Positions 7,985 through 45,047 of a stretch of 64,000 nucleotides of DNA are shown in pieces (the stretch's first letter is position 1; the number at the start of each line of letters is the position of its first letter). The position numbers and the translations under genes are program-made. The stretch is from positions 868,001 through 932,000 of the forward strand of contig WSYJ01000157.1 in the NCBI GenBank assembly GCA_020186115.1. Reading direction: 5' to 3'. The notes beneath the pieces were generated by a model. That model did no database searches. It saw only the letters and a program-made list of their open reading frames with translations, and was not told the origin of the DNA. Source of the stretch: Histomonas meleagridis (Eukaryota; Parabasalia; Tritrichomonadida; Dientamoebidae).

Positions 7985-8158
7985 TTCATGAAGTAATTTC
8001 ACTATTTCTGAATAACTTTTTTCTGATGCTTTCAAAAGCGCTGTTTTAAATTATTCAAATAATTTCCAAATATTATTTTGAATTTCTAAATTATCAGATT
8101 AAATATTGAATAAAACAAATAAATATCTTTAGTATTAATATCAATTCCTTTTTGTTCA
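7985..8158 (-). repeat. Ankyrin-unit relic with an 83-bp spacer
   Basis: On the minus strand this contains the consensus ankyrin segment (KASEKSYSEIVKLLHE-like) and the adjoining conserved spacer. Between the ACAGC start of the ankyrin segment and the next AATACTAAA codons the spacer measures 83 bp, as in the complete gene at 42685-45047. The unit breaks off at about 8158 inside an EQKGIDIN codon series and is joined to unrelated sequence. There is no start codon, so it is a relic. Confidence 0.7.
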
Positions 8159-8159
8159 C

Positions 8160-8354
8160 AATGGATGTAAGTTGTTTGAGTTGAATAAGTTACAAGACTG
8201 TGTATGTGTGTTCGCTGCTGCAAATGAGTTTCATCCTGTGCTGTATATCCTGTTTTCAATGGGATTAATCACAGACGCATACTTCTTGATGAGGGATTTG
8301 TTGCAATGTAATATGCTGACAGCAATTGGAGAGAAAGAATTCGAGTTTAAGTGA
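8160..8354 (+). pseudogene. Possible orphan coding fragment, family not recognised
   Basis: An open stretch directly abuts the broken ankyrin unit at about 8158. It is less AT-rich than its surroundings and would encode about 60 residues ending at TGA 8352-8354. The only ATG nearby (8161) is in another frame. It may be a gene fragment captured at the breakpoint, but no family is recognisable. Confidence 0.25.
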
Positions 8355-10294: not shown

Positions 10295-11500
10295 ATGAAC
10301 AAAATGGAAATGATTAAATCAATCCAACAAATAATATCTAATTTAAATAAAGAAAATGTTTCTCAATCTGCACAATCAATTCTATTTATTTTTGATTATA
10401 AATAACCATTTTCATTTAATCAAGTTATTATTATTCAATTTAAATATTTCTTTCTTTTTGATCCAATGAAAGATTTTGATATTTATTTAAGTTTTCTAAA
10501 TGAAATTGAACTATTTGAAGAAACTAAACAAATTCAATCCAAAATATTTGATGTTTTTTCACATCAACTTTTATTTTCAAAATGTCAAGAAAATAATTAT
10601 CCACTTTCAAAGATGTTTGAACGAAACTTTCTTAAACCTAACGCATTAATATATAAAGTAAATCCATATTTTGTTCATTATATGAGTCAAGAAGAAATTA
10701 ACAAGCAAAAGAACAATTATTCATTAAAACAAATCATGGAAAATTATTCAGAATTATCAAAAAATAAATGGGAACTTCATAAGGAATTAATTACTGAAGG
10801 AATTAATCCAAACAAAATAGCGAAGATAATTCGAAAAGATGAAATAGAAAAACTTCAAGAAATATCATCAAAAGAAGGATTTGATTATAATCAAAGAATT
10901 CCAAAATCACTTTATGAACGAAATTCATTCATTAATCATAAGAAAGTTACATTAATTGATTATGCAGCATTCTTTGGATCAATTCAATGTTTTAAATAAT
11001 TACTTATGAATGGATCTGATCTCGAATGCACAGGTAAATATGCAGTTGCAGGTGGAAATCTTGAAATCATTCATTTATGTGAACAATATCATTCATCATT
11101 TGAAGGTTCATATGAAGTAGCGATTAAATTACATAAAAATGAGATTTTTGAATATATTTATGAAAATAACTTAGAAGAAAACAGCTGTAATATTAATTAT
11201 TTGGGATGTTTATGTGTTAAGAATATGAATTATGACATCTTTACATATTTACAAGGGAAAGGAATGAAAATTGATGAAAATATTATTAATGAAGCAGCAA
11301 GAAATGGTAATTTATATCTTGTTCAACATTTTCAGAAAGAAAATTCACTTCCATTCGATATTTTGGTATCATCAACAGAATCAGGGAACATTGAACTTGT
11401 GAAATATATTCTTGAACAAAAAGGAATTGATATCAATACTCAAAGGAACAAATCTTTCAATCATTTGATATTTCAACGTAATATTTGGAAATTATTTTAA
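10295..11500 (+). pseudogene. DUF3447/ankyrin gene interrupted by two in-frame stops
   Basis: From ATG 10295 a single frame runs to 11500 and aligns throughout with the unique domain of the intact homologue at 43875-45047. Shared blocks include NLN.EN, KWELHK...INPNKIAKIIR(K/N)DEIEKLQE, TLIDYAAFFGSI.CF, GKYAVAGGNLEIIHLCEQ and GNIELVKYI. TAA codons at 10403-10405 and 10997-10999 interrupt it without any frame change; at the second, the homologue reads CFRFLLLNG where this copy reads CFK-stop-LLMNG. The third stop (11498-11500) ends the unique part just before the array of ankyrin units. Function of the family is unknown; ankyrin repeats usually bind proteins. Probably a young pseudogene. Confidence 0.8.
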
Positions 11501-11509
11501 ACATATTAT

Positions 11510-12110
11510 ACAGCACTTATAATTGCATCTCAAGGAGGTCACTTAGGAATAGTTAAATTACTTCTTTCAAAAAATGGAATTGATATTAATCTTAAAGATT
11601 TTTATTTGTTGTTTTTAATAATTGTTTTAATATATTAGTATCTCAAAATAATATTTGGAACTTATATAAATTATTTCGAACAGCACTTATGGGCATCTAT
11701 CAAAGGTTGCAAAGAAATCGTTAAATTACTACTTGAACAAGAAGGGATTGAGATTAATGTTAAAGATGTTTATTTGTTTTATATTATTTTTACTTATATA
11801 ATTTTATATCTCAAAATAATATTTGGAAATTGTTCAAATGATTTTGGACTGCACTTATTTGGGCATCTTCACTTAACTATAAAGAAATAGTTAAATTCCT
11901 TCTTGATAAAAAAAGGAATTGATATCGATGTAAAAAGTATTTATTTTATTTATTTAATCTTTATAATAATAATTTAGTAATTCAAAGTAATATTTGGCGT
12001 TTATTTAAATTATTTGAAACAGCACTCTCAATTGCAACCAATAAGAAATATACTGACATAATTAATTTAATTACATTTACCTCCTTATTAAAAAAAAATG
12101 CTAAGCTATA
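11510..12110 (+). repeat. Ankyrin array, 83-bp spacers, decayed coding units
   Basis: Continuation of the gene above. Ankyrin segments lie at 11510-11596 (87 bp), 11680-11764 (85 bp), 11848-11935 (88 bp) and from 12019 on. The spacers 11597-11679, 11765-11847 and 11936-12018 are each exactly 83 bp. Two coding units have lost or gained bases and no longer read through, while the spacers keep their length. The spacers share a core containing AATAATATTTGG. Confidence 0.8.
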
Positions 12111-12895
12111 ATTTATCAAAATTTATATACTTTTTGCACTAAAAAATACATTTTTCAAAGTTGAATGTTTTTTTTAATTCCTTTAAGATTTAAATACAAA
12201 GAAACAAAGATAGATCGCAAAACAAGTATCCCAGGAGTACAATAGTACTTAAATTAATTCTTAAAATTTGATATTTAAAAATTTTCATAATAATCAATGA
12301 CAGAACATTTGATAACTTCTGAAAAAGGTCACAGTCATAGCTAAATTACTTTTTGCAGTAAAAATAATCAAAATCAATGCCAAATATATTATATCTTTTC
12401 CATTATATAAAGGACAATAAATAATTTCTATATGTACTTACACAGAAACTATTTTATTGATAATAATTATTAATCAGGTTAAATAAGTACATCATTGAGG
12501 TATCACGAAAATATTCATATCATTTATTTCCTCATTGAATTAATAAATAAATTAATTTCAAGAAAATCAAGATTTCATATAATTATTTGGAATAAATAAA
12601 AAACCACGTCTTTGTTAATAAATTCTACGATTTTATTTCTTAACAAATTAAGGATCATTCAATTTGTCTGCCATCATCATCACACAGATATTACAATCAA
12701 TAATTCATAACAAAAATTCTATTTTGAGATCAAACCGTCATATAATTATGAAAAATACTATATCGTTCACTGAAATTTTTTTGACAAAATTCCTTTACGC
12801 AAATCACATAAACAAAATATCTGGAATCAAATACAACAAGATATTATTTTCGAACAAAAGAAGAGATTCATGATATTTAATAATATTGTCATACA
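12111..12895. other. Intergenic with ankyrin relic and dispersed repeat
   Basis: About 12300-12395 (plus) carries a strongly decayed ankyrin segment. 12432-12672 is copy 1 of a dispersed repeat described separately. A short ORF at 12664-12873 has no supporting feature. Nothing else is seen. Confidence 0.5.
12432..12672. repeat. Dispersed repeat R1, copy 1
   Basis: Shares long blocks with 18838-19075, for example CAGAAACTATTTTATTGAT, TATTAATCAGGTTAAAT and AAGAAAATCAAGATTTCATA, in the same order and orientation. Both copies sit beside ankyrin arrays. Partial copies appear near 8933 and 9905. I see no terminal repeats or ORF, so it may be old flanking DNA duplicated together with ankyrin genes. 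Confidence 0.7.
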
Positions 12896-21681: not shown

Positions 21682-22548
21682 TCATATGGAAGTAAGTAAA
21701 TCACTTTTGTGATTATAGCGGTAGCAAAATTCATTAATGTAATCTTCTAAATAAATACGATCTTTGTACTTATGAATTCTTTTCCATTGCTTTACAGCAC
21801 TCCACATTGATTCAATCCTTTAAGTATGAACTTTGGTAATTGGATCAACAAAATTCTTACTATGATTTACAGTGAAATGGAAATATTTTTTTCTTTGTAA
21901 ATCAATATAACCTCCCCATTGATCAGAAATCACTGTCGAGCCTACGTTTACCCATTGTCCTATACATCTTTCTAGATTTTGTATATCTCTTTCAGGAACA
22001 ATGGTAAAGTAGCATTTACCTCCTTTAATAGCTTCGCATGCTCCAAAAACCCATATTGGCGAGACTTTCCTCCCTTTGTTATCTTTTCTTTTGGTGAAAA
22101 GAGATTCATCAACTTGAACAATTGAGCCAAGGGGGAAATTACTCATTTCATAAATGATTTTTAGTACTGCTTGTTCTCTGAACTTCTGATAATAATGCGA
22201 ACATGCATCATCACTAATCCCTATTATTATTGATGCAGCTATATGAATTGGATAATCCATACAGAAGCATGCATAAACAAGGTAGAACTCACTGTCATTA
22301 ATTTTTCCATTGTTTCTGGGGAGAGGATGCCAAATAGAAAGATGACAATCGCATTTTCGATTCCGACATCGGTAGAATATTTCATGTGGATAAAATGTCA
22401 TAAAACTGTTACATTTTGGGCACATTCTGAGCATATTTGAATTTTGAACAATACCATAGTGAATGGCGATTTCAATAGCAGGGACATTGTTGTGAATAAG
22501 TCGCAATATTTCGTTGAAGTCCAAGCTTCCGATATAAATATTCATCAT
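21682..22548 (-). pseudogene. Merlin transposase (ISXO2-like) with one in-frame stop
   Basis: From ATG 22548 the frame encodes a zinc-ribbon (CPKC...CRNRKC, about residues 43-65) and the ISXO2/IS1595 DDE domain. The first Asp is in VQVDESLF and the second in VISDQWGGY; VNHSKNFVDP follows and then the third acidic residue in RIESMW. A TAA at 21820-21822 sits between HT and RIESMW, exactly where the family has Gln/Asn, and the frame then continues to the natural TGA at 21682-21684. Without that stop the protein would have about 288 residues, normal for Merlin. So this copy lacks the catalytic Glu unless the stop is read through. Confidence 0.9.
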
Positions 22549-29203: not shown

Positions 29204-30853
29204 TTAATTAATATGGGTTTTACTATTAATTTGGGCAAATTCAGGCGATTTATCATAAATTTTATTGTTTGCTTGTTTCTTTCTTCTAACGACAACGACA
29301 GCAACAGCAATTACCACTACAGCAATAGGAACAGCTATCACCACAGCAGTAGTGTTCGTATTACCTTTATTGGCGTCATTTCCATTTGCATTTGACTTTA
29401 ATTCCTCATTTTTTGCTTTTGCTTCTTCTAATATTTGGTTAAATTCTTCTTCTGTTTTAGCACTTTCTAATTTTCCAATGTATTCTTGTTGTGAATCACC
29501 CAAAAATTCCAATTTTTCAATTTCTTCTTTTGTTAATTCTTTTTTATTTGCTTTCAATTCTTCATTTTGTAATTGTGCATTTTCAACAATTTTTTTAATT
29601 GATTCGATATCTAATGCCTTATCAATTTCTTCTTGATAATTTTTAATTTTATCACTTTCAAGAAAACTGAATTCACTAATTTTATTCTTTGATAAAGTTT
29701 TTTGCGTTTTTTCATTTTCATCTGATTCATTTTGAGCTTTTATAACAATTTCATCTAATTCATTTGGTGAGATTGCATTTGAAATTTGTGTTTCGTAATT
29801 TGCTTTAATTTCTTCTTCTAAAAACTTTAACACATTAATTTTGCTTAATGCATCGTCTTTAAAGGTTTTATCATAATCAGAAAATGCCTTTTTTCCAATT
29901 AATTGAACTGTTCCAATTTATCTTTGGAATTTTCATATGTCAGTTTCTTTACATTACAAAATGCATTGGCAACAATAGTCAAAACGCCTCCTTCAATCTT
30001 AAGATCATTAATATCATTAAAGAAATTCTTCCATGGAACGAGTGTTTCGTTTTCAAAATCGCGCATTGGTCCATTTCCTTTAATCGTAAGAAGCCCATTT
30101 TTCAATGTCCACCGAAGATTTGATCCAATTAAACCAGAGTCTGTTGCTTCTTTTTGATAATATAGTGGCTTATCTTCAGGGTCTTGCCATGGATATGCTT
30201 TATATTGATAATCAACATCAGTCATTGGAAAACCATATTCCAATTCACCATTAATATAACGGTAATTTGACCGATGATAATTACCATTAATTCCCTTTAA
30301 GAATAATCCTTCTTTACCCCTCAGTCCCAAATAATATAATTTTTCTTCTAAAAACTTTCCCGCGCCTTCTTTTGATACTATAAATCCTTCATCAAACTTA
30401 AATTCATTAACATCAAACAAACATTCCCAGAACAAATGATCATATTCAACAGAGTTTGGATTATCTTTTTTGTTATAATACCATTTTCATTAACATTAAC
30501 ATTCCAACTTGTTTCAGTAAGATTTTTTGGATATATACATGTAAAGTGATCTTTGATATGTACTTTAACATTTACATCAATTTTCTCTTTGGGATATATA
30601 AGTTACTGGTTTTGCACCTTTAAGTTTAGGTGCCATATGTAAAGAAGGAGAATTATTAAAAATTTTATAGTCAGCAAGTGTTTTTTGATTACCTTGTTCC
30701 CTTCCATCAAAAACAAGTCTGTTTAGTTCCGTTGGTATTCCTTGAGAAAATGCTATTCGATTTTTTATTTCTTCGAATAATTAAAAAGGTAAAGCTAATA
30801 TCACTTAGCATGAAAATTAACGTGAATTGAGTTTGCTTGTTAATATCCATCAT
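29204..30853 (-). pseudogene. Frameshifted gene: ubiquitin-like domain + BspA-type LRR + transmembrane tail
   Basis: Reading the minus strand from a double ATG at 30848-30853: the segment 30777-30605 encodes a ubiquitin-like fold (FEEIKNRIAFSQGIPTELN, RLVFDGRE, TLADYKIFNN, LHMAPKLKGAKP), closely following ubiquitin residues ~24-76 with KLKGA in place of RLRGG. Further frames give PKEKIDVNVKVHIKDHF and SWNVNVNENG, then 30483-29899 a BspA-like part with TLTIKGNGPMRDFENETL-type motif (here LLTIKGNGPM) and ANAFCNVKKL. After a shift near 29900 comes IGKKAFSDYDKTFK, a Glu/Lys-rich helical stalk, a transmembrane helix (VVIAVPIAVVVIAVAVVVV) and a basic tail. At least four frame changes (about 30780, 30600, 30483, 29900) are needed, so it is a pseudogene unless the assembly has errors. 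Confidence 0.7.
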
Positions 30854-34615: not shown

Positions 34616-35500
34616 TTACTTTTTAGTCATTTTCTTGAGTTCTTCAACACTTGCAAGCAAAGCAGTGAATGCCACTTCATACACATCATTTTCAAATGCA
34701 TCATTTGCAAGTTTCACGAGATCCAAAACTGAACTTTGATCTTGTTTCTTATTTTCAGAATTTGGATCATATCTCATACTTGCCGTTATTTCTGGATATG
34801 AAGGTGATGAAGGTGGTGGTTGAGTTTTAACAGGATCAGGTGGTGTATTTTGTGGTGTGAAAACAGGTGGTCCACTTGCCTTTGAAGATCCTGGAGTAAA
34901 TACTGGTGGACCTCCAGCATTAGAATCTGGTGTGAATACAGGTGGGCCTTGTGCATTAGATCCTGGCGTGAAAACAGGTGGTCCACTTGCCTTTGAAGAT
35001 CCTGGAGTAAATACTGGTGGACCTCCGGCATTAGAACCTGGGGTAAAGACTGGTGGTCCTCCTGCTGATGGCGCTGAAGTTGTTGGAGGGCTATAAGAAA
35101 GAAGTCCACCTTCTATTGATTGCATTTTATTTTGGATAACAGGAGATATTGGGCCATGAAGGGATGTAGCAGCATAAGCAACGTAAGCAACTCTTTTAAG
35201 TTCGCCAGCCAAAGATGCGTTTGTAAGAGCAGCTGATACTAAAGCATCGCCAAATTTTTCAAGTTCTTCTACTGAAGCGCAAGCAGCGCCATCAGCCATT
35301 GCATTCAAGGTCATCATATCGACGGATTTTTCTGGCATTGATTCTGCGTTTGGTATAACTTTTTTTATAAGTTCTGCAGCATAATGAAGGAATGTACCTT
35401 GCATATTTGGGAAGCTTCCTTTCAGCATTTCAGCGGCGGAAAGTACAACAGCGATACCATTTACTTCTTTAAAATGAGACGCGTCAATTCCACAGTACAT
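34616..35500 (-). CDS. Proline-rich repeat protein (possibly Vta1/LIP5-like)
   Basis: The first ATG is at 35500, giving 294 residues; the upstream frame stays open to TTG 35570-35572 but has no ATG and overlaps promoter motifs. Residues 1-115 are helical and Ala-rich. Residues about 125-215 contain six tandem copies of a GGPPVFTPGS-type unit in two alternating forms (one with SSKAS). A short C-terminal helix pair (about 260-294) ends EELKKMTKK. The layout helical N-domain / proline linker / C-terminal helices is like Vta1/LIP5, a VPS4 cofactor, but I see no decisive signature, so this is a weak suggestion. It lies between Raptor and Rictor. Confidence 0.6.
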   Translation of the reverse strand: MYCGIDASHFKEVNGIAVVLSAAEMLKGSFPNMQGTFLHYAAELIKKVIPNAESMPEKSVDMMTLNAMADGAACASVEELEKFGDALVSAALTNASLAGELKRVAYVAYAATSLHGPISPVIQNKMQSIEGGLLSYSPPTTSAPSAGGPPVFTPGSNAGGPPVFTPGSSKASGPPVFTPGSNAQGPPVFTPDSNAGGPPVFTPGSSKASGPPVFTPQNTPPDPVKTQPPPSSPSYPEITASMRYDPNSENKKQDQSSVLDLVKLANDAFENDVYEVAFTALLASVEELKKMTKK

Positions 35501-35522
35501 TATATTAGTTAAAGCAACCGGA

Positions 35523-35570
35523 AAACCGTCAAAATTTACAGCCACTTTTTGCCAACGGTTATTAACGGTC
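35523..35570 (-). promoter_or_regulatory. Promoter motifs of the proline-rich gene
   Basis: On the plus strand: AAACCGTC (35523-35530), GCCACTTTTT (35541-35550), CAACGGTT (35553-35560) and TTAACGGTC (35562-35570). Three Myb-like cores and one GCCACTTTT motif lie 23-70 bases before ATG 35500, the densest cluster in the window. Confidence 0.45.
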
Positions 35571-35622
35571 AAAAAGGAAAAAAAATTTTTTATAATTTCT
35601 CAAACAAAATAATTTTTTTTAT

Positions 35623-38149: not shown

Positions 38150-38578
38150 TACTTCAAACATTTTATTATTCATTATTTACATCACGATAGTAAAATTATT
38201 CAAAACATTTTATTATTTATGAATCACAAATTGATTACATTACAAATTCACTTCAAACATTCTATTAATTAGTCAACAACGCTTCAATAGTGAATTTACT
38301 TTAAACATTTTATTAATTATTAATTACATTACAATAGTAAATTCACTTCAAACATTCTATTAATTAGTCAACAACGCTTCAATAGTGAATTTACTTTAAA
38401 CATTTTATTAATTATTAATTACATTACAATAGTAAATTCACTTCAAACATTTTATTAATTATTAATTACATTACAATAGTAAATTCACTTCAAACATTTT
38501 ATTAATTATTAATTACATTACAATAGTAAATTCACTTCAAACATTTTATTATTTATTAACAACAATTCAATAGTAAAT
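38150..38578. repeat. 47-bp tandem repeat at the 3' end of FANCI
   Basis: About nine units of roughly 47 bp with core TAAATTCACTTCAAACATTT and TATTAATTATTAATTACATT. Two alternate types (one with TTAGTCAACAACGCTTCAAT) form a 94-bp higher-order pattern between about 38250 and 38440. The last unit overlaps the stop codon of FANCI: its CAATAGTAAATTT encodes the final residues QIYY and TGA (minus strand). It may serve as the 3' UTR or simply be a minisatellite. Confidence 0.85.
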
Positions 38579-41500
38579 TTGCTCTTCGTCTCTTTCCTCG
38601 TCCATCATTTCGTCCTCTTCGATTTCTTTTCCCTTTTTCTTCCTATTGTTCATTGGTATTTTGATTTCCGTTCCCTTTAAGCTGCAGTACGTCTCCAACA
38701 GTTCTTCATCCAGTAATTTCTTATGTATCAAATTCTTTGTTGTTGATCTTACCTTATCGATGATGTAATGTAATTTCGGCGCATAATTTGCGTCGAATTT
38801 TTCTTGTCTTGAAATTCCTTTCATTACTTTCTTATCATTCATTTGATTTTTAATTGTGAAACGAATTACGTAATCATCGAAAGTTGATGTAATTTCTTTA
38901 ATTAATTCACTTAACACTTCGTTTGTTGAGTTTGGTAATACCATTGTCATTTCGAGTAATTTATTAATTGATTTATAATATTCGTTTAAGAACTTTACCA
39001 TTAATTCATAATAATTTGGAGGAAATAATTTGAAATCGATTTTTAATAATTCTTTTGATATTTTCTCTAATTGTAAAAGATATAAACATATCTTCATTGA
39101 GAAGTCCGAAATATCTTCTTGCTTAATTACATTTAATTGTGGTAACCAATGATTAATCATTATGTTTATGTTCATCAAATAATTATTAATAATATTTATC
39201 ATCTCTTGTAACATTGTCGATGAAGAATTTGGTTGTTCATCACTTAGACGTGATGTAATTAAATTTGTATATTGTAATAAGAAATCAAAATCAATTTGTG
39301 GTGCAAAATAACATGATAAATGTAATAACTTACCAGCATATAATGAATTAGACATTATTAATTGTTTTGTAATTTTATCAATGATTTTGAAGTTTTTTGA
39401 ATCATAACTACAATATAATGATATCTTTTCAGAGATATCACAAAAGTATCCAATGATTTTATTCGTTTTATTACGTACATTTTGTTTAATTCGTTGAATA
39501 ATTATTTGTTGTGAATCTTTAATTTCTTGTTTACTACTTATTAATCCAGATTTCTCTAAGAAATATTTAAAATTATTTTTATCATAAGTTTCAAAAACAA
39601 AATTAATTAATTGTAAACAACATTTGGATAATATTTCTATCAATGATATATTGTTCTTAATACCCGCAGGTGGTTCTGACCATTGTATATCATAAGAATC
39701 AAATAATATTTCGCCTAATATTATTACATATTTAAATCGATGTACACGTAATTCTAATCGTAATTCATTTAATTCGATTATCATTTCTTTTATTATATTT
39801 AATGAATAAAGTTGAATACCATAATCATCACTATAATCCCCTTTTTTATCTTTAAATAATTGAAATAATTTCTTTAAACGTTGAGTATCCATAAAATGTG
39901 GAAACTTTAAATTCGATTTTTGATTATTCTCTTCTTTATGATTTATCTTTTCGATTTCATATCGTTTATATTTAATTCGATCATATAATCGAAATAATGC
40001 TAATGCAATATCTTTATCTTCTAAAAAGACATTATTAAACATTACTAATATAATACTTATTACTATTTCTCGTACATCTGGTTTAGTAAATATACCTAAA
40101 TCTTCTTTTAATTTATCAAAATCTATTTCTGATGTTTCATTATATAATTTGTTTAATTTATATTCTAAATCATTCCATTCTTCATTCTTTTGTTTTATAT
40201 TATGTAAACATTTAAAGATACAATATATTAAATGTGGTGTTGATTCTTGAATTTTTAATGGAAATATTTCATCATTCGGATCATATACTTCATTCAATTT
40301 CTCTGTTAATGTTTGACATATTAAATTACTTAAGTTCGGATTATTCTTTAATAAAAATGGTATGAAAAATAATATATCCGCTTGAATTATATCTGATTGA
40401 TTTAAGCCTCGAATTAAAGCAGAATATACTTCGAATTGTAAATTTTCATTGATATTACTTTGATTATCATTAAAGTCTTCATATGTTTGTGTAAATGTTT
40501 TCTCTGGAATTGGTAATATTAAATAAAATAATGCAGCAACTCCATTTAATTTTGCTTTCTCTGTCCGATTAAAAAATACTTTTCGTGAGTTAATAATAGC
40601 TCTATCGAATAATCCTTCGTTTTGTATAATCTTCGGTACTGCAAATTTCATTAATTGTTCAATCACATCTAAATCTAAATATTGCATATAATCAATGACT
40701 TCTAATAAATGTTCTGGTGAATTTAATATTTGTATTAAATAAATAGAATTTGTGGAATTAGATATTAATCGTTGTACTATTTGATTATAGATTTCATTCG
40801 ATGATGAATGAAATAATTTTAATGACTTTTTAAGGATTTTAATTCCAATTTGTATTTGGCGTAATGGTATTGGTTTAAAGTCACTATTACATTCTTTGAT
40901 TTTTCCATTATCTTTCTTAAAATAACTTCCGAAATTTGCTTCATCAATTAATATAAATGCAAACTCTACAAAATAATGAGCATTACTTTCAATATGATAA
41001 CTTGACAATTGAATCGCTTTCGAAAACGCTTTCTCAATCGATATCATTGATGAAAACTCTTTCCGTAAATAATAATTACTTGTTAAGAAATTACTTCGGA
41101 TTCGAATCGAATCAATTTTAAGTTGTTCATTAAAGAACTTTAAAAATGTGTCTTTAACTTTAGGCGCAAGTCGTGATAAGTTAAATGTTAATGCAATTAG
41201 AAATGGGGTAAAATGACTCGGAAGTCCTATTTGCGATGTAAGTATCTTTACAAAGCCATCTAAGACTGTTCGTGATGATGTAGAGATTGTAAATAATGTC
41301 TTAATTAAATTACATAATGATTGGGAACTTTCAGCATTATTTTCTTTTTCTAATTCTAACGCTGTAAGAATAAATTTGTTTAAACATGAAAATGATAATT
41401 TGGGATACTTACGTAATGGTGGTAATATCTTTTCGGCGACAATCGATAATTTCGTCTCTTTAAGGGATGAAAAAATAGATTCAATGAAATCTGAGATTTG

Positions 41501-42133
41501 GGTTTCAGTTAATGGTAACTCCATTAATGTGTCAATGATTGATGGTAATGCATAGTCGGGGAATTTGGACATGATTATGTTGTCGAGCCATCTTTGACAA
41601 TGAACATTAGATGGAAATGCCCCATCTTTGTTCTCAAATTCAGTGGTTTCTTCATTTAAGATATTGAAGAGTGGTGGAATGATGGATAGAACTGCTTCAG
41701 ATATGTATTGTTTTGAAGGTTTCTCTTCTTTTAATGAACAAATCTTTTGAAATGTTTTATCCATGAGTTGAAATGACTTACGTAATGTGGACACTTGTGT
41801 AAGAAATGGTACTATCTTGGTAAGTTCTAATGTAAAGGCTCGAGCAGATTCTAATGTTTGAAATTGCCACCGAAGAATTGCTCGAATTGAACATAATACT
41901 GTCTCAGATATTAGAGAGTTTTGTGATTCTGCAAGAGATTCAAAAATTGCACGTAAAACACGATTGGGAGATAAATCAGATGCAATAGATTGTCTGATAT
42001 AATCACTAATTTTTTTTTCATTTAGACCAGAACCAAATTCAGACAATGCTCTTGAACTTGGGTTGTTTTCAGATTTGTTACTAGAGACATCATTGTAAAG
42101 TGTTAAGAGATTTTTGATTTCATCATCATCCAT
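38567..42133 (-). CDS. FANCI: FANCI-like protein (Fanconi anaemia ID complex)
   Basis: A 1188-residue helical-solenoid protein that I recognise as FANCI. Residues about 200-245 (LMELPLTETQISDFIES through KILPPLRKYP) match the FANCI solenoid-1 segment. About 325-545 (KDTFLKFFNEQLKID, HYFVEFAFILIDEANFG, RQIQIGIKILKKSL, YLDLDVIEQLMKFAVPKI, RTEKAKLNGVAALFYLILPI) follows the helical region holding the monoubiquitinated Lys523 in human. About 605-645 (LNEVYDPNDEIFPLKIQES) matches QFYEPKPDLLPPLKLE. Lys526 and Lys528 lie at or one residue from the human site. The C terminus is Lys/Glu-rich, like the basic/acidic tail of animal FANCI. FANCI pairs with FANCD2 on DNA at interstrand crosslinks; FANCD2 is not in the window. 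Assignment is by remembered alignment. Confidence 0.8.
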   Translation of the reverse strand: MDDDEIKNLLTLYNDVSSNKSENNPSSRALSEFGSGLNEKKISDYIRQSIASDLSPNRVLRAIFESLAESQNSLISETVLCSIRAILRWQFQTLESARAFTLELTKIVPFLTQVSTLRKSFQLMDKTFQKICSLKEEKPSKQYISEAVLSIIPPLFNILNEETTEFENKDGAFPSNVHCQRWLDNIIMSKFPDYALPSIIDTLMELPLTETQISDFIESIFSSLKETKLSIVAEKILPPLRKYPKLSFSCLNKFILTALELEKENNAESSQSLCNLIKTLFTISTSSRTVLDGFVKILTSQIGLPSHFTPFLIALTFNLSRLAPKVKDTFLKFFNEQLKIDSIRIRSNFLTSNYYLRKEFSSMISIEKAFSKAIQLSSYHIESNAHYFVEFAFILIDEANFGSYFKKDNGKIKECNSDFKPIPLRQIQIGIKILKKSLKLFHSSSNEIYNQIVQRLISNSTNSIYLIQILNSPEHLLEVIDYMQYLDLDVIEQLMKFAVPKIIQNEGLFDRAIINSRKVFFNRTEKAKLNGVAALFYLILPIPEKTFTQTYEDFNDNQSNINENLQFEVYSALIRGLNQSDIIQADILFFIPFLLKNNPNLSNLICQTLTEKLNEVYDPNDEIFPLKIQESTPHLIYCIFKCLHNIKQKNEEWNDLEYKLNKLYNETSEIDFDKLKEDLGIFTKPDVREIVISIILVMFNNVFLEDKDIALALFRLYDRIKYKRYEIEKINHKEENNQKSNLKFPHFMDTQRLKKLFQLFKDKKGDYSDDYGIQLYSLNIIKEMIIELNELRLELRVHRFKYVIILGEILFDSYDIQWSEPPAGIKNNISLIEILSKCCLQLINFVFETYDKNNFKYFLEKSGLISSKQEIKDSQQIIIQRIKQNVRNKTNKIIGYFCDISEKISLYCSYDSKNFKIIDKITKQLIMSNSLYAGKLLHLSCYFAPQIDFDFLLQYTNLITSRLSDEQPNSSSTMLQEMINIINNYLMNINIMINHWLPQLNVIKQEDISDFSMKICLYLLQLEKISKELLKIDFKLFPPNYYELMVKFLNEYYKSINKLLEMTMVLPNSTNEVLSELIKEITSTFDDYVIRFTIKNQMNDKKVMKGISRQEKFDANYAPKLHYIIDKVRSTTKNLIHKKLLDEELLETYCSLKGTEIKIPMNNRKKKGKEIEEDEMMDEERDEEQIYY

Positions 42134-42340: not shown

Positions 42341-42412
42341 GGGGCGATTCGGGAATCGAACCCGAGACCTCTCGCACCCAAAGCGAGAATCATTCCACTA
42401 GACCAATCACCC
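42341..42412 (-). tRNA. tRNA-Pro (TGG)
   Basis: 72 nt fold as a cloverleaf: acceptor GGGTGAT / ATCGCCC, D arm with TGGTCTAGTGGAA, anticodon stem CTCGC/GCGAG enclosing loop TTTGGGT with anticodon TGG, and T arm CTCGG GTTCGAT CCGAA-type with GGTTCGATTCC as the B box. The discriminator base is C, which is usual for eukaryotic tRNA-Pro. No intron and no encoded CCA. Confidence 0.95.
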
Positions 42413-42684: not shown

Positions 42685-45047
42685 TTACTTTTTCATTTTT
42701 GAAAGGATTTCCTTGATACCTCTGTCAATTTGATTTTGATAAAACTGTTCTAAAGCGCTTAAAGTTTTAAATATTTAAAATAATTTCCGAATACTATTTT
42801 GAAAAACCAAATTATCAAAATTAATTTGAAATTAATTAAATAAATACTTTGAGTATTGATATCAATACCTTTTTGTTCAAGAAGTAATTTAACTATTTCT
42901 GAATGACCTTCTAGAGATGCTAACATAAGTGCTGTTCTAAATAATTTAAATAATTTCCGTATATTATTTTGAAACATCAAATTATTAAAATCGATTTTAA
43001 ACAAAACAAATAAATATTTCTTGCATTAATATCAATTCCTTTTTGTTCAAGAAGTAATTTAACTATGTTTATTTTACCTTTAAAAGATGCATACATAAAT
43101 GCTGTCCATAATATTTTAAATAATTTCCGTATATTATTTTGAAACATTAAATTATTATAATCAATTTTAAACAAAACAAATAAATATTTTTTGCATTAAT
43201 ATCAATTCCTTTTTGTTCAAGAAGTAATTTAACTATTTCTATATGATCATTTAAGGAAGCTACTATAAGTGATACTTCAAATAATTTCAATAACTTCCAA
43301 TTATTATTTGTAAATATGAAATTATTAAAGCAAATTTTAAATAGATTTAATAAATATCTTTGACATTTACATCAATTTCTTTTTGTTCAAGAAGTAATTT
43401 AACAATTTCAATGTAACCATTTTTAGAAGCATAAAGAAGTGCCGTGTAAAATATTTTGAATAATTTCCGAATATATTTTTAGAGCATCATATTATGAAAA
43501 CAATCATTAAATAATACAAATATACATCTTTAGCATTTAAATCGATTCCTTTTTGTTCAAGAAGTAATTTAACAATTTCTGTATTATTGTTCATCGATGC
43601 AAAAATAAGAGGTGTTTTCTAATGAATATATAAAATCCAATTTATGAATTGAAACATTAGGATTTAAAAAAAAAATTTAAATAAACAAATTAAATATATT
43701 TTACATTTACATTGATATTAAATTTATAATTCTCAAGAAAGAATTTAAGAATTTCATTAAGATTATTCAAAGATGCTGTAATAATTGGTTCTTCAAAACA
43801 TTTAAAATAATTCCAAATAATAAAATGAGAAATATTTTGAATGAAATAAACAGTAAAAAAATGATATAAATATTTTTGGTATTAACATCAAATTTCTTTT
43901 CTTCTATAATATATTTCACAAGTTCAATGTTTTCTGAGATTATTGAACAATATAAAATATTTGTTGGAATTCGATCATATCCTTCAAGAAAATGTTTTAT
44001 TAAATAAATATTTCCAATTTTAGCTGATTCATTAACAAGAACATCATTTGTTTTCATCCCTTCTTCTTCTAAAAATGATAAAAGTTCATAATTAAAAAAG
44101 AGAATACATTTCCTTCCTATCGCTGCTAAATCTTTAAATTGATATATCTTTTTATCATACATATATTTAAAGATATCATTTCGATGATATTCAATTGCTA
44201 TTTCATGTGTGTCTCTAAAATCAGTATGATTTTGTTCACATAAATGAATAATTTCAAGATTCGCACCTGCAATAGCATATTTACCTGTTTTATTAACATT
44301 CGCTCCGTTTAATAATAAAAACCTAAAACAATTAATTGATCCAAAAAATGCTGCATAATCAATTAATGAAACATTTTCTTCATTAATAAATGAATATCGT
44401 TCATAAAGTGATGGCTCAATTTCTTGATTAAAGTTAAAATCATTTTGTGCTGTCATTTCTTGAAGTTTTTCGATTTCATCATTTCGAATTATTTTTGCAA
44501 TTTCATTTGGATTAACTCCTTCTTTAACATATTTCTTATGAAGTTCCCAATCGTTATTCGATAGTTTTTCAATGTTTTTCGTAAAATAATTTTTAAAAGA
44601 ATTAAAACACTTTGAAATTATTTCATCTTTTGAAAAATAATGTGCAAAATAATATGTTGGCTGAGATTTTACAAAACTTGGATCAACTAAACCTTGTTCT
44701 ATCATTTTTTCTATAATATAATATGATTCTTGTGGTCTATATGAAAAATTTAACATTGAAAACAATTTATTCTTCGTATAATTGATTTTAATGTGTTCTT
44801 TATTCTTTTCTTGAAGTATTTTTAAAAATTGTATTGCAAAATCAAAATTACCCTTTTGTGATACAATTGAAGAAAATACTAATTGAGAAATAATATGTAT
44901 AAATAAATATGGAAAATCATTATCAAAAATATCCATTACTTTTTTGACAGATTCATCTAAGTTTTCAGTGTTTAAATTATATACTATATATTCGAGTTGA
45001 TTAAGGAATGATAAGTCCTTATTTTCATGTGAACTTTTTATTTCCAT
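42685..45047 (-). CDS. DUF3447/ankyrin protein gene with seven 83-bp frame-breaking spacers
   Basis: The best-preserved member of the family here. Coding segments on the minus strand are 45047-43875 (391 codons, unique DUF3447-like domain ending in a first ankyrin, NIELVKYIIEEKKFDVNTK), 43791-43699 (31 codons), 43615-43529, 43445-43359, 43275-43189, 43105-43019 and 42935-42849 (29 codons each, TALMLASLEGHSEIVKLLLE type) and 42765-42685 (26 codons plus TAA, a Lys-rich tail ending LSKMKK). Every segment is a multiple of three and together they would give 593 residues. The seven intervening spacers are each exactly 83 bp. Without removal of the spacers, translation shifts frame and stops soon after the first repeat (stop at 43767). 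A 34-residue ankyrin would need five more codons per unit, so part of each spacer may be coding. Confidence 0.65.
42766..43874 (-). repeat. Seven 83-bp inter-ankyrin spacers
   Basis: Spacers: 42766-42848, 42936-43018, 43106-43188, 43276-43358, 43446-43528, 43616-43698 and 43792-43874, all 83 bp although their sequences differ at many positions. On the coding strand the 5' end is like RATATTTATTTG and the 3' half carries AAATAATATNYGGAAATTAT then TTAAANTATTT. A 7-bp inverted repeat (AAATAAT ... ATTATTT) flanks the GG in most copies. No GT or AG is invariant at the ends. Confidence 0.85.

Follow-up and report, generated by a model that had tools for sequence, protein, structure and literature searches.

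In the poultry parasite Histomonas meleagridis the ankyrin exons of a DUF3447 gene family are separated by AT-rich intervening stretches of near-constant length, and we propose, with a probability of about 0.6, that these gaps are unconventional introns which would be removed from the RNA by a non-established route. Coding selection acts in register on the exons but not on the gap, whether in the flanking frames or in antisense, and gap length is tightly held while gap sequence drifts. In the proposed mechanism each ankyrin repeat would represent an exon of approximately 99-102 nt followed by a non-coding intervening sequence, predominantly of 68-71 nt with minor classes of approximately 48-54 nt, and removal would yield a translated stack of 33-34-residue ankyrins behind the DUF3447 N-terminal domain. 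We infer that removal happens at the RNA level; the agent might be the parasite spliceosome acting on unorthodox sites, or a nuclease/ligase system measuring from a GGA element and a fixed length. A literature search covering mainly openly accessible papers found none describing such gaps.

Organization of the focal gene

The focal gene (45047-42685, minus strand) lies in the window, a 64,000-nt stretch of DNA with a G+C content of 26.7%. As the original prediction had read it, the gene is composed of coding segments that are all multiples of three (1173, 93, five of 87, and 81 bp) and of seven gaps of 83 bp each, which together sum to the 2363 bp of its span (Table 1). It belongs to the DUF3447 ankyrin family by a PF11929 match in the ORF 43767-45047 (E 1.4e-08, 35 bits against a cut-off of 26.9). 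The description of the 83-bp stretch as a frame-breaking spacer stood for the length, which is found in seven out of seven gaps, but not for the extent, since the stretch is not wholly non-coding: the coding parts take up, or may take up, some 6-9 nt at the start (GAT ATT TAT) and 6 nt at the end (a TTT and a variable codon), and the core is of 68-71 nt. In all six focal-gene gaps bracketed on both sides by the exon HMM the core was 71 nt. A C5 paralogue (minus strand of locus L009), 86% identical at the DNA level, shows core lengths of 74 and 91 nt together with two TAG codons at column 57, which counts against the intron reading; so does the finding that the annotated protein of the focal gene was not among the matches listed in the NCBI homologue search (clustered at 90%).

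Table 1. Coding segments and non-coding cores of the focal gene (window positions)
Feature	Position	Strand	Basis
Coding segment 1, 1173 bp, 391 aa, DUF3447 + ankyrin-like N-terminal domain	43875..45047	-	PF11929 match; 27 homologues
Non-coding core 1, 71 nt, within 83-bp gap 43874-43792	43798..43868	-	Exon HMM
Coding segment 2, 93 bp, ankyrin	43699..43791	-	Sequence reading
Non-coding core 2, 71 nt	43622..43692	-	Exon HMM
Coding segment 3, 87 bp, ankyrin	43529..43615	-	
Non-coding core 3, 71 nt	43452..43522	-	Exon HMM
Coding segment 4, 87 bp, ankyrin	43359..43445	-	
Non-coding core 4, 71 nt; upstream-frame stop at core bases 4-6	43282..43352	-	Exon HMM
Coding segment 5, 87 bp, ankyrin	43189..43275	-	
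Non-coding core 5, 71 nt	43112..43182	-	Exon HMM
Coding segment 6, 87 bp, ankyrin	43019..43105	-	
Non-coding core 6, 71 nt	42942..43012	-	Exon HMM
Coding segment 7, 87 bp, ankyrin	42849..42935	-	
Non-coding core 7, 71 nt	42772..42842	-	By eye; HMM missed short terminal exon
Terminal coding segment, 81 bp incl. stop	42685..42765	-	Short terminal exons in other arrays

For the N-terminal domain 27 homologues were found. Two NCBI Histomonas proteins were among the listed matches of the domain (clustered at 90%), a relative of the domain gave 101 genome matches, and the deposited annotation may lack a large share of the family. Seven homologues from other assemblies (P0003-P0005, P0009-P0011, and P0016) end directly behind the codon equivalent to the last pre-gap one (K-D-I, K-D-V, and K-G-I or Q-D-I being the readings), as though it were immediately followed by a stop or by the predicted end. 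The first junction of P0001 is gap-free; this does not amount to evidence for splicing of a transcript, because the best genome match of P0001 (60% identical) is likewise open there. Other DUF3447/ankyrin genes of the same genome (PF11929, PF12796) share the N-terminal domain and the ankyrin repeats, but in other ankyrin genes here the frame stays open over as much as 1,578 aa, whereas the focal family is gapped after almost every repeat.

Elsewhere in the window a RICTOR-domain gene (PF14668, PF14664; 31100-34108, plus strand) and a Raptor-domain gene (PF14538; 35623-37509, minus strand) lie close together and convergent, with an ORF at 34616-35572 in between; RICTOR and Raptor are the marker subunits of TORC2 and TORC1. 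These TOR genes are adjoined by a gene for a FANCI-like protein (PF14676, E 1.5e-11; 38567-42133, minus strand), and a tRNA gene (42341-42412, minus strand) separates the latter from the 3' end of the focal gene. An ISXO2-like (IS1595) transposase domain (PF12762) was identified at 21820-22548 (minus strand), and two ORFs at 29204-30435 (minus strand) with a frame change around 29833-29899 represent a broken gene, a short intron, or an assembly error.

Abundance and length of the gaps

The search covered a 43.28-Mb assembly of 121 contigs; the genome report, in the portion available, gives 43 Mb, approximately 28% G+C, and 187 contigs (PMC8529796). A 36-nt gap motif, allowing up to three mismatches, gave 3,738 matches genome-wide and an exon-gap-exon pattern gave 932 exact matches, with no match for the reversed control in either case; no exact exon-gap-exon match with a gap of 0-30 nt was present in the whole assembly. 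Among the 100 places listed out of the 932, 86 had the same core length of 71 nt, as counted by hand from coordinates and with a pattern that selects units with well-kept exon ends. In the fetched loci 240 of the 282 gaps bracketed by the exon HMM had a 71-nt core; the other lengths were 3, 48, 51, 54, 62, 63, 69, 70, 72, 73, 74, and 91 nt, so that lengths cluster at 51-54, 71, and 91 (two cases). The exceptional lengths are mostly 0 or 2 modulo 3 and seldom 1, the cases being non-independent. A broad length distribution, which the original prediction had named as a refutation, was not seen: the distribution is sharply peaked with minor lengths present. The dominant 71-nt core is not universal, other arrays of the window being less regular.

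A 47-nt anchor matching the conserved repeat picked up 304 units over the window and 20 loci, in arrays of up to 33 units; neighbours within 1 kb of each other formed 270 pairs, of which 234 were spaced by exactly 170 bp and 36 were not. Within the window, unit spacings were 153, 168, and 170 in the array at 11393-11884 (plus strand), where the unit at 11546 has a 2-bp exon deletion and hence an exon frameshift, and 171, 171, 170, 170, 153, 174, 169, and 170 in the minus-strand array 14765-13417. The stretches 11393-12334 (plus strand) and approximately 8008-8178 (minus strand) are less intact array copies in which an exon deletion, stop codons, or short gaps occur. In loci L030 and L032 the gaps, read by eye, are made of a 20-nt sub-repeat and measure 48 and 68 nt, those of 48 nt containing an in-frame TAATAA; a longer run of the sub-repeat is seen at the end of L032. 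Periodicity is weaker in the gap consensus of the main family (0.57 at lag 20 and 0.65 at lag 40, against 0.32-0.55 at the other lags from 5 to 44).

Homogenisation of the DNA, which had been offered as an explanation of the fixed length, can account for the similarity of many gaps but not for the diverged arrays, where 71 nt is kept in 22 out of 32 gaps of 20-250 nt at a mean identity of 53-70%. These arrays come from six loci chosen for a continuous first junction, one gap (221) spans a missed exon, and the mean gap identity of 0.53-0.70, from four comparable arrays, is to be set against 0.36-0.44 in shuffled sequence. Length in the diverged arrays is probably held tighter than would be expected under neutral drift.

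Coding selection on exons and the fate of downstream repeats

In 234 units of 170 bp the 19 upstream-frame codons that precede column 57 contained a single stop, and the downstream frame had none from column 128 onward. At the variable codons 131, 146, 155, 158, and 164 of the downstream exon 23.2, 47.8, 51.2, 6.5, and 4.8 stops were expected and none was observed at any of them, i.e., approximately 133 expected over the five against zero seen; the expectation derives from base frequencies with columns treated as independent and units are related, so that it serves for orientation and should not be taken as a P-value. Stops at codons within the gap were close to expectation (98 vs. 104.6, 29 vs. 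35.3, 17 vs. 21.2, 16 vs. 21.1, 12 vs. 12.4, and 8 vs. 8.1), and the stop previously reported at gap positions 40-42 (column 90) was indeed present in 98 of the 234 units. The gap-edge codons 57, 60, 122, and 125 show a mild shortage (2 vs. 4.3, 4 vs. 7.3, 6 vs. 8.5, and 3 vs. 5.5 expected), and this counts against the intron reading. Antisense coding of the gap was not supported either, as stops (1057, 1381, and 1314 against 1040, 1426, and 1303 expected) showed no avoidance. Flanking exons coding in register around a non-coding insert, the general hallmark of an intron, are thus what was found.

Exon length changes in threes, the anchor distance being 36 in 281 and 33 in two of 283 scored units, a set which leaves out 36 units with a poor downstream anchor. 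Of the corresponding gaps 42 were off the common length and fell into all phases, 30 being 0 modulo 3, seven 2 modulo 3, and five 1 modulo 3. When the initial 19 codons of each of the 319 pairs were taken together with the second block where scored, there were 21 stops in 9,738 codons, a count which includes wrong-strand false matches. Global alignment of the units to their consensus with gaps allowed produced numerous indels in the exons, some of them out of phase, but it placed gaps ambiguously in the AT-rich edge and included false wrong-strand matches (L027 minus and part of L013 minus); its indel counts are therefore set aside and lend no independent support. Across 3,000 between-locus pairs the constant part of the exon had a pN/pS of 0.63 at a pS of 0.155, the variable part had one of 1.70 at a pS of 0.164, and the p-distance of the gap was 0.121; the gap is therefore, if anything, less diverged than synonymous sites.

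A post-gap terminal segment with an F-x-T-A-like repeat motif was present in 19 of the 32 chains of at least three exons, 18 of them at 71 nt, the length tried first out of eight, and one at 54. Fourteen of these reach a stop after 22-41 residues, two run off the locus, two are very short (L014 and L019), and one is long (L028). No such segment was found in the remaining 13 chains, including the focal gene, whose segment fails the motif. Several chains end just past the outer helix (e.g., L009 minus, L010, L012, L018, L021, L023, L024, and L025). In-phase terminal segments after gaps, together with chains of this latter type, favour reading the array as one protein.

The alternative which survives best is that the downstream repeats are unexpressed, being silent cassettes or decaying tandem duplications whose exons are kept open by exchange with expressed copies while translation ends in the first gap. 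We regard this as improbable. Some arrays are visibly decayed (11393-12334 in the window), and the similarity of many gaps (0.121 being below the synonymous 0.155-0.164) indicates that the 170-bp unit may turn over fast; moreover, among 16 homologues from other assemblies (P0001-P0014, P0016, and P0018) seven end directly after a K-D-I-like codon and five run a short way into gap-like sequence. Against it, the stops missing from the variable codons require selection on the downstream repeats, the terminal exons are in phase in 14 of the 32 chains, and exon lengths change in threes in the 283 scored units.

Boundary of the proposed excision

Removal of 68 nt would restore the 34-residue repeat of gap-free ankyrins, as in the gap-free ankyrin gene L041, which has a 34-aa period counted by eye, and at the first junction of L042, the one gap-free junction in that locus within the same family (KNVLFESPL). 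Non-canonical introns with a 68-nt excision were the best fit among the options raised by the original prediction. In a set of 220 distinct units, six still have a stop at the junction after the best 68-nt cuts, one after the best 71-nt cut, and none after some of the 74-, 77-, and 80-nt cuts, although longer cuts test fewer codons. That no 68-nt cut is stop-free in these 220 units counts against the intron reading. Because of the repeat length the boundary is given as 68-71 nt, the exact base not being fixed.

Bypassing of each gap by the ribosome, in a hop of approximately 68 nt, would also suit a fixed length, harmless gap stops, and a lack of splice signals, and there are precedents in gene 60 of phage T4 and in the yeast mitochondrial byp elements. 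Translational bypass follows a rule of matched take-off and landing codons, and here the pairs at 54/122 (ATT-AAA), 57/125 (TAT-TTA), and 60/128 (TTG-TTT) are unmatched, as read by eye from the consensus in the 68-nt register only. In addition, cores of 48-91 nt coexist within one family, and a 33-unit array would need as many hops per protein; bypass is accordingly held to be very unlikely. Slightly less credible still is removal from the DNA itself in a cell stage or nucleus other than the one sequenced. The inserts are short and AT-rich with weak boundaries, and their lengths cluster, all of which would fit such removal, but boundary direct repeats, examined by eye, are inconsistent in the in-frame register, the assembly holds no exact gap-free junction, and H. 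meleagridis is a single-nucleus flagellate. Ciliate-type excision was dropped for the want of consistent boundary repeats.

Signals, structure and splicing machinery

That the spacer ends share no GT-AG was borne out in the 220 distinct units: AG is lacking in 161 of the cores, and in-frame, stop-free GT-AG removals were possible in 31 units against 31.05 in shuffled sequence, so that the GT...AG of trichomonad introns was not recovered. These numbers contradict canonical GT-AG introns that would take up only part of the gap, another of the explanations originally offered, and although GT stands at columns 62-63 in 173 of the 220 units we consider such introns highly improbable. Programmed -1 frameshifting in each gap, which had also been suggested and for which few stops in both flanking frames over approximately columns 57-90 and the relation 170 = 3x57-1 could be cited, is the least credible explanation of all and is contradicted by downstream-frame gap stops near the chance number, with no new frame opened, by gap lengths in all three phases, including cores of 0 modulo 3 (51, 54, and 72) in 28 of the 282 bracketed gaps, and by the TAATAA of L030 and L032.

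Trichomonad motifs were all but missing from the 220 cores, with CTAAC, as in the ACTAAC-type branch/3' motif, in none and the 5' site GTATGT in two, and the cores revealed no common splice-site sequences of the kind known from Stentor. AT-AC ends fit 183 of the 220 units against 154.5 in shuffles; AT-AC removal was rejected, however, as it would delete the stop-avoiding codon 131. Most gaps share a [TC]GG[AG] element located 17 nt before the 3' end (the downstream F codon), which is present in 222 of the 262 rows of 71 nt, five of the seven of 51 nt, and ten of the 13 of 54 nt, with the gaps of L042 counted twice. The 51- and 54-nt gaps thus differ upstream of this motif. Among 23 representatives, each selected at a length of 71 nt, conservation within the gap was strongest in a run centred on ATTTGGAATTTATT (columns 107-120) and in stretches rich in T.

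Single-sequence folding of 23 sequences gave no RNA structure joining the gap ends (mean z -0.12; 0.68 expected boundary pairs against 1.01 in shuffled sequence), and RNAalifold was uninformative, assigning zero energy to the alignment both before and after column shuffling. A 6-bp hairpin around GGA can pair in 98 out of 138 cells of the representatives (51-76 when shifted), but there is almost no two-sided change and it is not claimed.

The genome carries U2 with GUGUAGUAUC, U6 with ACAGAG (43.7 bits, just below the gathering score of 44), and Prp8. Ordinary spliceosome parts are therefore present, while the gaps are without the known signals of this machinery; U2 and U6 look ordinary, which counts against the intron reading. 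GTATGT followed within 3-33 nt by ACTAACACACAG had no match, and ACTAACACACAG alone was not enriched (three matches against two for the control). In L036, near 1501-1512, a frame judged kinase-like by eye is preceded by ACTAACACACAG, a candidate 3' end of an ordinary trichomonad intron. With neither GT-AG, nor structure pairing the ends, nor a trichomonad splice motif found, no known machinery fits these gaps, and this too counts against the intron reading.

Comparison with known introns

Trichomonas vaginalis, Stentor, and euglenid introns, as far as the available parts of the respective papers describe them, each share one feature with the gaps and differ in another. The 63 T. vaginalis introns are all GT/AG, with the branch motif fused to the 3' site and one intron per gene, and those of type B are near-uniform at 23-25 nt, with some located in ankyrin genes (PMC12316389). 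Type A and B trichomonad introns, as presented there, thus resemble the gaps in being short, in the element fused to the 3' end, in the near-uniform length of type B, and in the ankyrin context, whereas the Histomonas gaps are usually without AG, lack CTAAC, number up to approximately 30 per array, and measure 68-71 nt. The tiny introns of Stentor, on the available account, are AU-rich, 15 nt in 92.81% of cases and otherwise 16 nt, with a branch A at a nearly fixed position (PMC9505925). Their almost fixed length is matched in Histomonas, if less strictly, but Stentor has common splice-site sequences and the Histomonas gaps have none and are four to five times longer. Euglenid nonconventional introns, as the accessible text describes them, have variable length, a stem joining the ends, and a non-established removal mechanism (PMC4770533); the non-canonical borders are alike, while the Histomonas gaps are near-fixed in length with ends unpaired in the 23 representatives (0.68 vs. 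1.01 shuffled). It is conceivable, though we rate it as rather doubtful, that the gaps, of which there are several thousand in this single protist, represent a nuclear intervening sequence of a new class, which would be defined by fixed length and a 3' GGA instead of GT-AG and removed in a manner distinct from the GT-AG spliceosome.

Implications

In the available portion of the genome report, 573 and 638 introns are annotated in two H. meleagridis strains, at most one per gene (PMC8529796). If the gaps are introns, a single gap motif would add 3,738 to these, many per gene and without the usual signals, the ankyrin family would be an expanded one that gene prediction would split, and the arrays would offer a large natural data set on how length can define an intron. 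If, on the other hand, the gaps stay in, several hundred repeats would be held open by selection without apparent translation, which is equally hard to explain. Should the new intron class prove true, variable exon use could yield combinatorial repeat proteins, since the exons are phase-symmetric single ankyrins with their variable codons where ankyrins bind. Judged from the sequence, either the cell would remove these gaps in a non-established way or its ankyrin genes would need another unusual explanation.
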